Source: Candidatus Hadarchaeales archaeon | Lineage (GTDB): Archaea; Hadarchaeota; Hadarchaeia; Hadarchaeales; WYZ-LMO6 | Length of the DNA: 64,000 bases | Assembly: GCA_038736355.1 (NCBI GenBank) | Contig: JAVYML010000001.1 | Coordinates: 244,908 to 308,907, forward strand | Reading direction: 5' to 3' | In this document: one piece after another, positions 56,240 through 59,056 of the stretch | Layout: every line of letters begins with the position of its first letter | Position numbering within the stretch: the stretch's first letter is position 1 | Position numbers and translations under genes: made by a program | The notes under the pieces: model-generated | What the model was told of the DNA's origin: nothing | The model's database searches: none | The model's input: the letters and a program-made list of their open reading frames with translations, nothing else

Positions 56240-56878
56240 ACGCGGCTGGACCTGCACGTCCACACCTCCCACTCCTACGACGGTCGCTGCTCCCTCAGGC
56301 TCCTTTCCAAGCTGTTGAAAAAGAAGGGGCTGAACGGCTTTGCCTTCACGGACCACGATAACCTCGAAGCCCTGAAGGAGCTGCGCCTCCTCTCCCCCCC
56401 CAAAGACTTCCTGATCATTCCAGGGATAGAGGTGACGAGCAGGCACGGCCATATCCTGGGACTGGGGGTGAGGGAGGCCGTGCCACCCCATTTGGAAGCG
56501 GAGGAGACCGTGGAGCTCATAAGGGAACAGGGGGGAATAGCCGTGGCAGCCCATCCCTTCTGGCTCAACGGAAGACCGGGAGCGGTTTTCCATGCCCGCT
56601 TCGATGCCGTGGAGGTTTTCAACTCCAGATCCTACTTCCTCTCCAATCCCCTGGCCCGCAGGTACGCGGAGAGGAAGGGACTACCCATGACGGGGGGCTC
56701 GGACGGACACAGCGAGGAGGAGGTGGGGCTGGCCTATACGGAAGTGGGGGAGGTGAAAGGGGTGGAGGGAGTGCTGGAGGAGATCGAAAGGGGAAGGACC
56801 CTTGTCGGGGGAAGGAACTTCCCCTTCCTCAAGTACCTTGCCGGGGCCGTTAAGAAGGTGGTAGGGGGATCAGGGTAG
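56240..56878 (+). CDS. PHP-domain phosphoesterase, apparent ACG start
   Basis: 212 residues if read from ACG at 56240. The PHP motif begins RLDLHVHTSHSYDGRC, and FTDHDNLEALKEL, GIEVTSRHGHILGLG, AAHPFW and GGSDGHSEEEVGLAY complete the metal site. The frame has no ATG, GTG or TTG between the MetRS stop (TAG, 56237-56239, same frame) and TTG 56315, which would lose the first HxH. AAGGTGAGG lies just before the ACG, and ACG is one base from ATG. A rare ACG start, a sequence error or a mutated start are possible. Members cleave phosphate esters; substrate unknown. Confidence 0.85.
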   Translation, partial: TRLDLHVHTSHSYDGRCSLRLLSKLLKKKGLNGFAFTDHDNLEALKELRLLSPPKDFLIIPGIEVTSRHGHILGLGVREAVPPHLEAEETVELIREQGGIAVAAHPFWLNGRPGAVFHARFDAVEVFNSRSYFLSNPLARRYAERKGLPMTGGSDGHSEEEVGLAYTEVGEVKGVEGVLEEIERGRTLVGGRNFPFLKYLAGAVKKVVGGSG

Positions 56879-57967
56879 GCCCCTCCTGATCCACTCCCTG
56901 AAGAAAACATCGAGGATTTTTCCTCTCTCCACCAGACCCCTCTTTTCTAGGAGCTCCAGTCCCTTCCTGACGTGGGCGGGGGATCTCAATCCGTACTTGG
57001 AGATGAACTCCTGGGAGTAGGGACCCACTTCCTCCTTCGCCAGACCCTCCAGAAGCCTGCGTTGCAGGGGGGTGAGGTTCTCCCAGATCCCGAAGTAGTG
57101 GATCCTCTCGTGGAGGATCACGTTCTCCACGGCCTTCTCCACCGCGGCCTCATCGTCCACCCTTTTCGAGAGAAACCAGAGTTCGTAGCAGAGCTGCTGG
57201 GTAAAGGAGGGATGACCATCCGTGAGGTCAAGGATGTGGGCTATCGCGGCCCCGCTTATTCTCCCCCCCGTCCTTCTGAAGCCCTCCTCTATGTATTTCG
57301 CGAACTCCTCCCTGGGTATGGGTCCGAGCTCCATGGGCTCCCCGAACCTGTAAAAGGCCCGGCGCTCCTCGCTGAAGATCTCGTCCAGAAGGTGCCTCCT
57401 GCTTCCCGTGAAGAGGTAGGTGACCCTTCGGTGGTGCTGGAACCTCGACCTCATCAACTTTTCCATGGCCTCGCCATCCAGGTTTCTTATCTCCTGGAAC
57501 TCGTCGAACGCTATCACCATCCGCAGGCCCTTTTCTTCCGCCACCTTCTCGGGCAGGTCGAGCACCTGCGCGAGATCCTCCTCGGTGGGGGTCCTCAGGA
57601 GCTCAAACCTCACCTCCCCTCCGGGGGTCAAAACCATGTCCACCCTCAGTCCCCTGAGGAAGTCCTGCAGTCCCTTCCTCATCCTCTCGAAGGTACCATA
57701 AACCTTCTTCGCCACCTTCCCCACCAGCTCCCTCGCCAGGGCCTCCCTGCTCTGGATCCCGAAGAGGTCGATGAGGATGGAAGTGTATTTTCCCTCCGTT
57801 CTCCTGAAAAATTCCTCCACCAGGGAGGTCTTCCCCATCCCCCTCGAGGAGTACAGGATAACGCTCCTCCCCGCCTCCACATGTGCCTCCAACTCCGCGA
57901 GTTCCCTTTCCCTGTCTATGAAGTGCTCCCCGCTCACCACCTTCCCGTAGAGGAAGGGATTTTTCAT
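56870..57967 (-). CDS. archaeal AAA-type ATPase (ATPase_2 family)
   Basis: 365 residues of the STAND-like archaeal ATPase group (PF01637). Walker A in LYSSRGMGKTSLVEEFF at about 38-54, Walker B in RMVIAFDEFQEIRNLDGE, sensor YLFTGSRRHLLDEIF, and a C-terminal winged helix (KYGLRSPAHVRKGLELLEKRGL). The start ATG lies inside the last copy of an AAAGGTAT repeat. Such ATPases often sit near small regulators or mobile elements; here an RHH gene is just upstream. Target unknown. Confidence 0.9.
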   Translation of the reverse strand: MKNPFLYGKVVSGEHFIDRERELAELEAHVEAGRSVILYSSRGMGKTSLVEEFFRRTEGKYTSILIDLFGIQSREALARELVGKVAKKVYGTFERMRKGLQDFLRGLRVDMVLTPGGEVRFELLRTPTEEDLAQVLDLPEKVAEEKGLRMVIAFDEFQEIRNLDGEAMEKLMRSRFQHHRRVTYLFTGSRRHLLDEIFSEERRAFYRFGEPMELGPIPREEFAKYIEEGFRRTGGRISGAAIAHILDLTDGHPSFTQQLCYELWFLSKRVDDEAAVEKAVENVILHERIHYFGIWENLTPLQRRLLEGLAKEEVGPYSQEFISKYGLRSPAHVRKGLELLEKRGLVERGKILDVFFREWIRRGLP

Positions 57968-58013
57968 ACCTTTCAGTATACCTTTTGGTATAATACCTTT
58001 ATTTATACCTTTT
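57966..58013. promoter_or_regulatory. array of four AAAGGTAT sites upstream of the ATPase gene (operator)
   Basis: Four copies of AAAGGTAT, read on the minus strand, begin at plus-strand positions 57966, 57978, 57993 and 58005, spaced 12, 15 and 12 bases. Two of them face an inverted TATACC-TTTT-GGTATA at 57977-57992. The last copy includes the ATPase start codon. A fifth copy (58348-58355) overlaps the probable promoter of the RHH gene. The pattern fits tandem binding of a ribbon-helix-helix repressor. Confidence 0.6.
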
Positions 58014-58058
58014 AGTTAAATTCCACAACTGTTTTGTTCAAAAAATTTGGATGAAAAG

Positions 58059-58092
58059 CGGGGGGCAACCTTGGGGGGAAGGTTGCCCCCCG
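58059..58092. terminator. perfect 14-bp inverted repeat between RHH and ATPase genes
   Basis: CGGGGGGCAACCTT (58059-58072) pairs exactly with AAGGTTGCCCCCCG (58079-58092) around a GGGGGG loop. Read on the minus strand it follows the RHH stop by 26 bases and is followed by a T-rich stretch, so termination of the RHH transcript is plausible. A role as a protein-binding palindrome is also possible. Confidence 0.55.
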
Positions 58093-58118
58093 GGCTGGCA
58101 AAGGTGGGGGGGTGATCG

Positions 58119-58313
58119 TTACTTCTTCTTCGCGTATTCCATCAAGCCGCGGAAACCCCCTATGTTGGCCATCACCCAATCGTGGACCATCTTCCTCACG
58201 ACTTCGCTCCGGTTGGTCCCGTAACCCGCGGTGATGAGGTCATCGATGATCCTGAGGTAAAGACCATCCAGGAACACCCTCACTTCCCCCTTCTTCTCTC
58301 CTCCATCTACCAT
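58119..58313 (-). CDS. ribbon-helix-helix DNA-binding protein
   Basis: About 64 residues. The strand GEVRVFLDGLYLRIIDDLIT and the turn YGTNRSEVVRKMVHDWVMAN are the CopG/RHH pattern, with a basic end (EYAKKK). TTG 58322 would add three residues; ATG 58313 is preferred. On this strand ATACCTTTTTATAT (58342-58355) is a likely TATA element containing an AAAGGTAT site, so it may repress itself and the ATPase gene. Confidence 0.8.
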   Translation of the reverse strand: MVDGGEKKGEVRVFLDGLYLRIIDDLITAGYGTNRSEVVRKMVHDWVMANIGGFRGLMEYAKKK

Positions 58314-58347
58314 CCAGCTCAAATCCAGCTATACTCCAGAAATATAA

Positions 58348-58355
58348 AAAGGTAT
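58348..58355. promoter_or_regulatory. single AAAGGTAT site at the RHH promoter
   Basis: An additional copy of the octamer repeated before the ATPase gene, here in the opposite orientation and overlapping the probable TATA box of the RHH gene. This supports autoregulation. Confidence 0.45.
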
Positions 58356-58426
58356 CGGCGGCGATCAAAATATCAAGGGCTGGGAAAAAATGGGGGGGGA
58401 ACGCTTGAGAAATAGGAGAACCTGAG

Positions 58427-58690
58427 ATCCTCACTGATTCCTTTTCCAAACTCCTAAGAAAGGAGCTCGCAAGCGTCTTGACGGGAAGAACCCTGTCGCT
58501 TGAGGTCCTCCCGTTGATTTGGCGGAGTTCCTACAGTTCAAAGGGCTAGAAGTAAAAGAAGAAAGCGACCTTCTGGTCAGGAAAAAGATTCTGAACCTTC
58601 GCGAGTACCTAGAATTCGGCGGTTTTCTATAGGTTGTCCTCACGAGGCTCAAGGATGTAAAGAGGATCCTCAAGGAACTCTTCAATGAAA
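58427..58690 (+). pseudogene. fragment of a DUF4143-type archaeal ATPase
   Basis: Plus-strand reading gives ILTDSFSKLLRKELAS, TGRTLSLEVLPL, then after a frame change AEFLQFKGLEVKEES and LNLREYLEFGGF, a stop, and VVLTRLKDVKRILKELFNEI. These are consecutive motifs of the central part of DUF4143 ATPases (TGSSSKLL, SLEVLPLSFxEFL, YLxxGGFPEVVL). A frameshift near 58515 and a TAG where Glu is expected (58634) show decay. The Walker A half and the C-terminus are missing. Confidence 0.65.
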
Positions 58691-58994
58691 TACATCAATA
58701 ACATAGCAGGGAAGCACAGGGTGAGGTAGACGACCTCAAGGTACTGGCGGTCCTGACAGTGGAAAACTTCTCTCGGAGAGGCCAGAGAAAAAACTAAGCA
58801 AGCTCGCCAACCACGCAGGAGCCATCTTGGTATGCAAGAGGGCTTGCGTACCGTGTAATAAAAAAAATCCGGCCTCACAAGAAATCGGCTCCACAGTAGT
58901 GAAAAAAATTGAAGTTTCTCAGTAAGATTTTGCTGATATCTCCGGACTTTTTGAATTCAGACCTTCAGTCTTAACGGTTAGATTCGTAGACTGG
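58691..58994. other. non-coding stretch, no gene recognised
   Basis: After the ATPase fragment I see no convincing gene. A short open stretch at about 58795-58924 (plus) reads KKLSKLANHAGAILV and may be a further decayed remnant. From about 58900 the composition turns AT-rich, which leads into the glycosyltransferase cluster. Confidence 0.4.
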
Positions 58995-59002
58995 TATAAA
59001 AA
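58995..59002 (+). promoter_or_regulatory. TATA box of the glycosyltransferase cluster
   Basis: TATAAAAA in GGTATAAAAAACTTATG, about 60 bases upstream of the first ATG (59057). It is the clearest TATA element near the cluster and would give a leader of about 30 bases. Confidence 0.5.
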
Positions 59003-59056
59003 ACTTATGAGCACCTTAAAGTGAAATAAGTTCTAGAATGCAGTCTGGTGTGTAGA

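Follow-up and report, generated by a model that had tools for sequence, protein, structure and literature searches.

Results

Features of the locus

The window, by which we mean the whole stretch of 64,000 nt of archaeal DNA that was analysed, carries on its minus strand an ATPase gene that is immediately preceded by an array of octamers, and further upstream a short gene labelled RHH-like. The features are listed below in window positions.

56870..57967, minus strand: ATPase, 365 aa, with a PF01637 ATPase_2 core and a C-terminal winged helix (Pfam, AlphaFold2)
57966..58012, minus strand: predicted operator array of four AAAGGTAT half-sites, its two ends overlapping the TATA-like box and the start codon
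58005-58012, 57993-58000, 57978-57985 and 57966-57973, minus strand: the single half-sites, with start-to-start distances of 12, 15 and 12
57977..57992, no strand: exact palindrome TATACC-N4-GGTATA, the core of the array (sequence inspection)
58000..58007, minus strand: TATAAATA, taken as a TATA-like box, overlapping the first half-site
58059..58092, no strand: hairpin with perfect 14-bp arms between the RHH-like gene and the array (z -4.57)
58119..58322, minus strand: RHH-like gene, 67 aa (label from the original prediction; no Pfam match)
58348..58355, plus strand: single octamer AAAGGTAT before the RHH-like gene (motif search)

A position search confirmed the earlier observation of four octamer copies with 12/15/12 spacing before the ATPase. 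Each octamer is a half-site of a palindrome, TATACC-AAAA-GGTATA, which is repeated imperfectly. The last copy runs into the start codon of the ATPase gene, and the first copy overlaps TATAAATA, a putative TATA-like box. Nine copies of AAAGGTAT were found in the 64,000-nt window, compared with 1.41 expected from shuffles. In the whole genome (1.27 Mb) there were 69 copies against 55 for a reversed control pattern, so that a lone octamer is nothing unusual. A search of the whole genome for the clustered form AAAGGTATN{4,10}AAAGGTAT gave three overlapping matches, all of them at this locus, and a Poisson estimate for four same-strand copies within 47 bp was about 2e-8 for the genome. The proposal of an iterated operator had depended on the octamer not being frequent throughout the genome; this holds for the clustered form, which is unique, but not for the single copy, which is common. 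We concluded that the cluster before the ATPase is far beyond chance.

Family and fold of the ATPase

PF01637 is a large family of obscure function, and ATPases of this type go under the family names STAND and MNS. The ATPase of the window matched the PF01637 profile with 44.3 bits (curated cutoff 33.2), and the statement that the system is not explained by a known family was thereby corrected. In alignment A2, which comprised 68 members and did not contain L157, L179 and L181, all 68 members matched PF01637 at E<=0.001, and the residues of the Walker A motif and of an acidic Walker B motif (G45, K46, S48, D155, E156, F157 and Q158) were invariant. The AlphaFold2 model of the ATPase had a mean pLDDT of 93.5 and placed the recognition helix of the winged helix at approx. 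330-342; the winged-helix domain comprises residues approx. 297-365. The best structural matches of the model were 2qen (Z 25.2) and 2fna (Z 23.5), followed by Orc1/Cdc6, CED-4, plant NLRs and TnsC. The alignment to CED-4 and the NLRs revealed an NB-ARC-like layout, in which a single fold unites the nucleotide-binding domain, a helical domain and the winged helix.

The same genome contains a second PF01637 paralogue with 29% identity to the ATPase of the window. PADLOC models of candidate anti-phage defence systems gave weak matches among the 68 members, PDC-S27 in 11 and PDC-S01 in 17, the best at about 1e-7 and 1e-8, respectively. With regard to a virus-borne origin, one of the eight scans that make up viral_contigs yielded 32 pattern matches and no relative. 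Separately, 49 PF01637 matches, several of them broken by stop codons, were seen in G054 (contig C1), a genome of family f9, where PF01637 is a large family that is both expanding and decaying.

Private repeats upstream of relatives

The region before the start codon of each relative was given a generic score for direct and inverted repeats and judged by dinucleotide shuffles (p<0.05). The score was significant in 45 of 71 members, as opposed to 14 of 108 control ORFs (Fisher p 2e-12). Two held-out sets gave 15/21 (Fisher p 1e-7) and 12/19 (Fisher p 1e-5). Into the 71-member set had entered 65 of the 80 named loci, the rest being duplicates, loci with less than 120 bp upstream, or loci that did not fit the start motif used. 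For the held-out sets 26 of 88 and 17 of 47 loci were without an extractable start, and the removal of redundancy reduced them from 36 to 21 and from 30 to 19. In the wider 2fna-like group doubled repeats were present in 15 of 15. DUF234-type members failed the generic score (3/11, p 0.19). By eye, the DUF234-type members L036, L037, L045, L063, L069, L070, L072 and L080 each show a palindrome of their own, such as GAGTATTATACTCATG, that touches or overlaps the start codon.

The repeats differ from gene to gene, as illustrated by TAACCAAAAGGTTATAACCAAAAGGTTATAA upstream of L009 and TTACGATATTTTTCGTAACG upstream of L156, a bacterial member. The repeat of L166, from Elusimicrobia, is TTATACTTTATGGTATAATACCAAAAGGTATAATGG, the half-site of the window in a bacterium. 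The second paralogue of the genome has a different doubled repeat of its own, TTCTGGGGCAGAA. In one member after another, the repeats sit close to the promoter and start codon of their own gene. Most of the relatives, which come from archaea and many bacterial phyla, have private iterated repeats directly upstream of the start codon, and this bears out the earlier assignment of the iterated operator to the ATPase gene.

Operator grammar in the nearer subfamily

Sites of this subfamily took the form TTAnnn-N6-n'n'n'TAA, repeated every 15 bp. Exact sites were found in 25 of 71 members (shuffle mean 0.36) and in 1 of 286 other ORFs; with at most one mismatch the numbers were 51/71 (shuffle mean 5.0) and 11/286. 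The 15-bp spacing was seen in 18 of 23 cases. This grammar was derived from the same 71 members on which it was counted, and was then frozen for new members. In the first held-out set the frozen grammar matched 4 of 21, which was not significant (shuffle mean 0.98, maximum 5), and in the second it matched 11 of 19 (shuffle mean 1.46, maximum 6). Because of the failure in the first held-out set the strict grammar was rejected as a rule for the whole family, and we claim it for the nearer subfamily only.

Residue 335 and the third operator base

Alignment columns were scanned against the operator bases, with 18 of the 68 A2 members left out for lack of a called operator. In the first scan, against the operator triplet, K335 ranked second of 289 columns and F356 first; taken as a whole, the recognition helix did not stand out, with 30% of windows scoring as high. 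When each 50%-identity cluster was represented by a single member, K335 came first among 308 columns for operator base 3; the scans for bases 1 and 2 did not single out this residue. Lys or Arg stood at 335 in 13 of 15 clusters with C at base 3 and in 0 of 7 otherwise (Fisher 2e-4, uncorrected for the number of columns). Ser at 335 was found in 9 of 10 first-set members with A at base 3, mostly from one clade.

Among held-out members, Lys or Arg was present at 335 in 6 of 6 with C at base 3 compared with 2 of 11 without (Fisher 0.0023). This table left out 23 of 40 members lacking a called site, and counted L290 and L305 against the rule, although their called sites look wrong by eye. In disjoint nearest pairs the link between residue 335 and base 3 amounted to 24:0 versus 5:4 (p 0.003; rank 5 of 355). 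Residue 335, in the predicted recognition helix, thus tracks one operator base, Lys/Arg going with C. Since a regulator encoded by a neighbouring gene is not expected to yield such a link, it speaks for the ATPase as the reader of the array.

The RHH-like gene and its surroundings

Of the 26 further genomes of the order, 20 contain the RHH-like gene, each as a single copy. It is a core gene at the level of the order and, going by its label, would be a regulator. Close relatives of the ATPase are, unlike the RHH gene, patchy across the order. Among the 22 genomes with an RHH match, the two genes lie side by side in 2, namely this genome and one of the same genus in which the ATPase is decayed. 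In G005 and G010, which have the closest intact ATPases (that of G005 is 73% identical to the ATPase of the window), they lie on separate contigs. Of two genomes of the same genus, G001 contains the RHH gene and the hairpin together with a decayed ATPase, which is missing its 5' end and the array. In G002, RHH gene, hairpin and far flank are present, and array and ATPase are absent. Between the matched flanks G002 has 96 bases, compared with approx. 1.27 kb (array and ATPase) in the window, and thus represents an empty site. The hairpin is very stable, and probably separates the transcription units of the RHH gene and the ATPase.

Given that the RHH gene belongs to the single-copy core of the order, that its pairing with the ATPase is not conserved and that the flanks occur in one same-genus genome without array or ATPase, we consider it probably a bystander to both. 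The octamer before it had been counted as part of the operator. A lone octamer is expected in any given 120 bp with a chance of about 0.6%, which makes this copy unremarkable, and it is not conserved, G001 having AAACC where the window has ATACC. It was therefore ruled out as an operator and is probably a chance overlap with the TATA region of the RHH gene.

The original prediction had also suggested a search for conserved RHH-ATPase pairs and had seen a likeness to plasmid partition or toxin-antitoxin loci. The genes proved to be unlinked in relatives, and neither likeness gained support: a toxin-antitoxin locus was rejected as the two-gene pair is not conserved, and a ParABS-like partition system as the RHH gene is not conserved beside the ATPase and, among the 54 members whose sequence extends far enough, 40 are not closely followed by a gene on the same strand.

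No long convincing ORFs were seen at window positions 58400-59030, in the interval from the RHH gene to a glycosyltransferase cluster. This region is possibly the remains of a lost gene or element.

Discussion

We propose that the array serves the ATPase gene as a private operator, to which the ATPase is predicted to bind by its own C-terminal winged helix, repressing its own gene with oligomerisation set by nucleotide. We hold this to be likely; as regards autoregulation by the ATPase itself, the proposal rests on the covariation between residue and base. Dimers or higher oligomers of the ATPase would sit on half-sites about every 15 bp. Because the half-sites span the TATA-like box and the start codon, binding should block the initiation of transcription, so that repression rather than activation would be the outcome. 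The nucleotide state (ATP or ADP) of such a STAND-type ATPase may set its oligomerisation and hence cooperative binding or release.

Binding of the array by the ATPase could instead serve a DNA transaction such as partition, replication start or a transposition-like mobility. Orc1/Cdc6 on DNA and TnsC are among the structural neighbours, with Z reaching 18.9 and 16.7, respectively, and the patchy presence, the decayed copies and the empty site suggest mobility. The sites, however, hug the promoter and start codon of their own gene in member after member, and most members (the same 40 of 54) lack a close downstream gene that might serve as partner, and we regard this explanation as unlikely. 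Somewhat less probable still is that the protein on the array is a paralogous ATPase or some other regulator of the host. The genome does encode a second PF01637 protein, but this paralogue has a different doubled repeat of its own, and the operator base tracks a residue of the cognate protein.

The original prediction assigned the array to the RHH protein, as regulator of and unit with the ATPase. The two genes are indeed neighbours in this genome and an octamer stands before the RHH gene, yet the RHH gene is conserved in genomes without ATPase or array, adjacency is rare (one of the two cases involving the decayed ATPase), and the hairpin stands between the two genes. We consider control by the RHH protein very improbable. 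The palindromes could also fold as hairpins in RNA and act as a structured 5' leader. The fold of the leader did not stand out from that of shuffled sequences (z -1.61), 16 of 200 of which were as good. Most of the array would moreover not be transcribed, since it overlaps the TATA-like box; of the explanations considered we give this one hardly any credence.

Our literature search, which did not extend to the SSO1545 report and does not establish absence from print, found no description of operators in the PF01637 family; the available excerpts of PMC5760070, PMC4158269 and PMC6393860 contain no mention of them.

A private operator together with a readable link from residue to base offers a concrete and cheap handle on what PF01637 proteins bind, in a family that reaches dozens of copies in some archaeal genomes, such as the 49 matches in G054. 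If autoregulation by the ATPase is the true reading, a fold with the core of immune receptors would be tied to sequence-specific DNA binding. More speculatively, and with considerable doubt, PF01637 ATPases may be a very large cross-domain class of one-gene switches, each with an NLR-like core, a winged-helix reader, its own iterated operator coded by the recognition helix, and ATP-controlled oligomers on that operator; the winged helix of NB-ARC immune receptors may descend from such a DNA reader.

Among known systems, PABY2304 (2qen) and SSO1545 (2fna) belong to the same family by profile and share the fold over 327 residues at the Z-scores given above. They differ in having 18-22% identity to the ATPase of the window, and are known as structures, with no operator described in the portions of the sources available. 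CED-4 and the plant NLR resistosomes align in nucleotide-binding core and winged helix over approx. 290 residues (about 10-365; Z approx. 15-17). The ATPase of the window, in contrast, is without sensor repeats or effector domain, and its winged helix appears to be a working sequence reader. MalT and, according to PMC5760070, IniR are ATPase-driven STAND regulators of transcription with a DNA-binding domain, as proposed here. In both, DNA binding falls to a separate domain at the C-terminus, and a large sensor is present, whereas the ATPase of the window would use the winged helix of its core. The Orc1/Cdc6 initiators share the combination of AAA+ and winged helix but bind origins, while the sites described here lie at the promoter of the gene itself. 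Stf76 of pSSVx is a self-regulating wHTH repressor that is reported to bind two sites in its own promoter, and differs from the protein of the window in having no ATPase.
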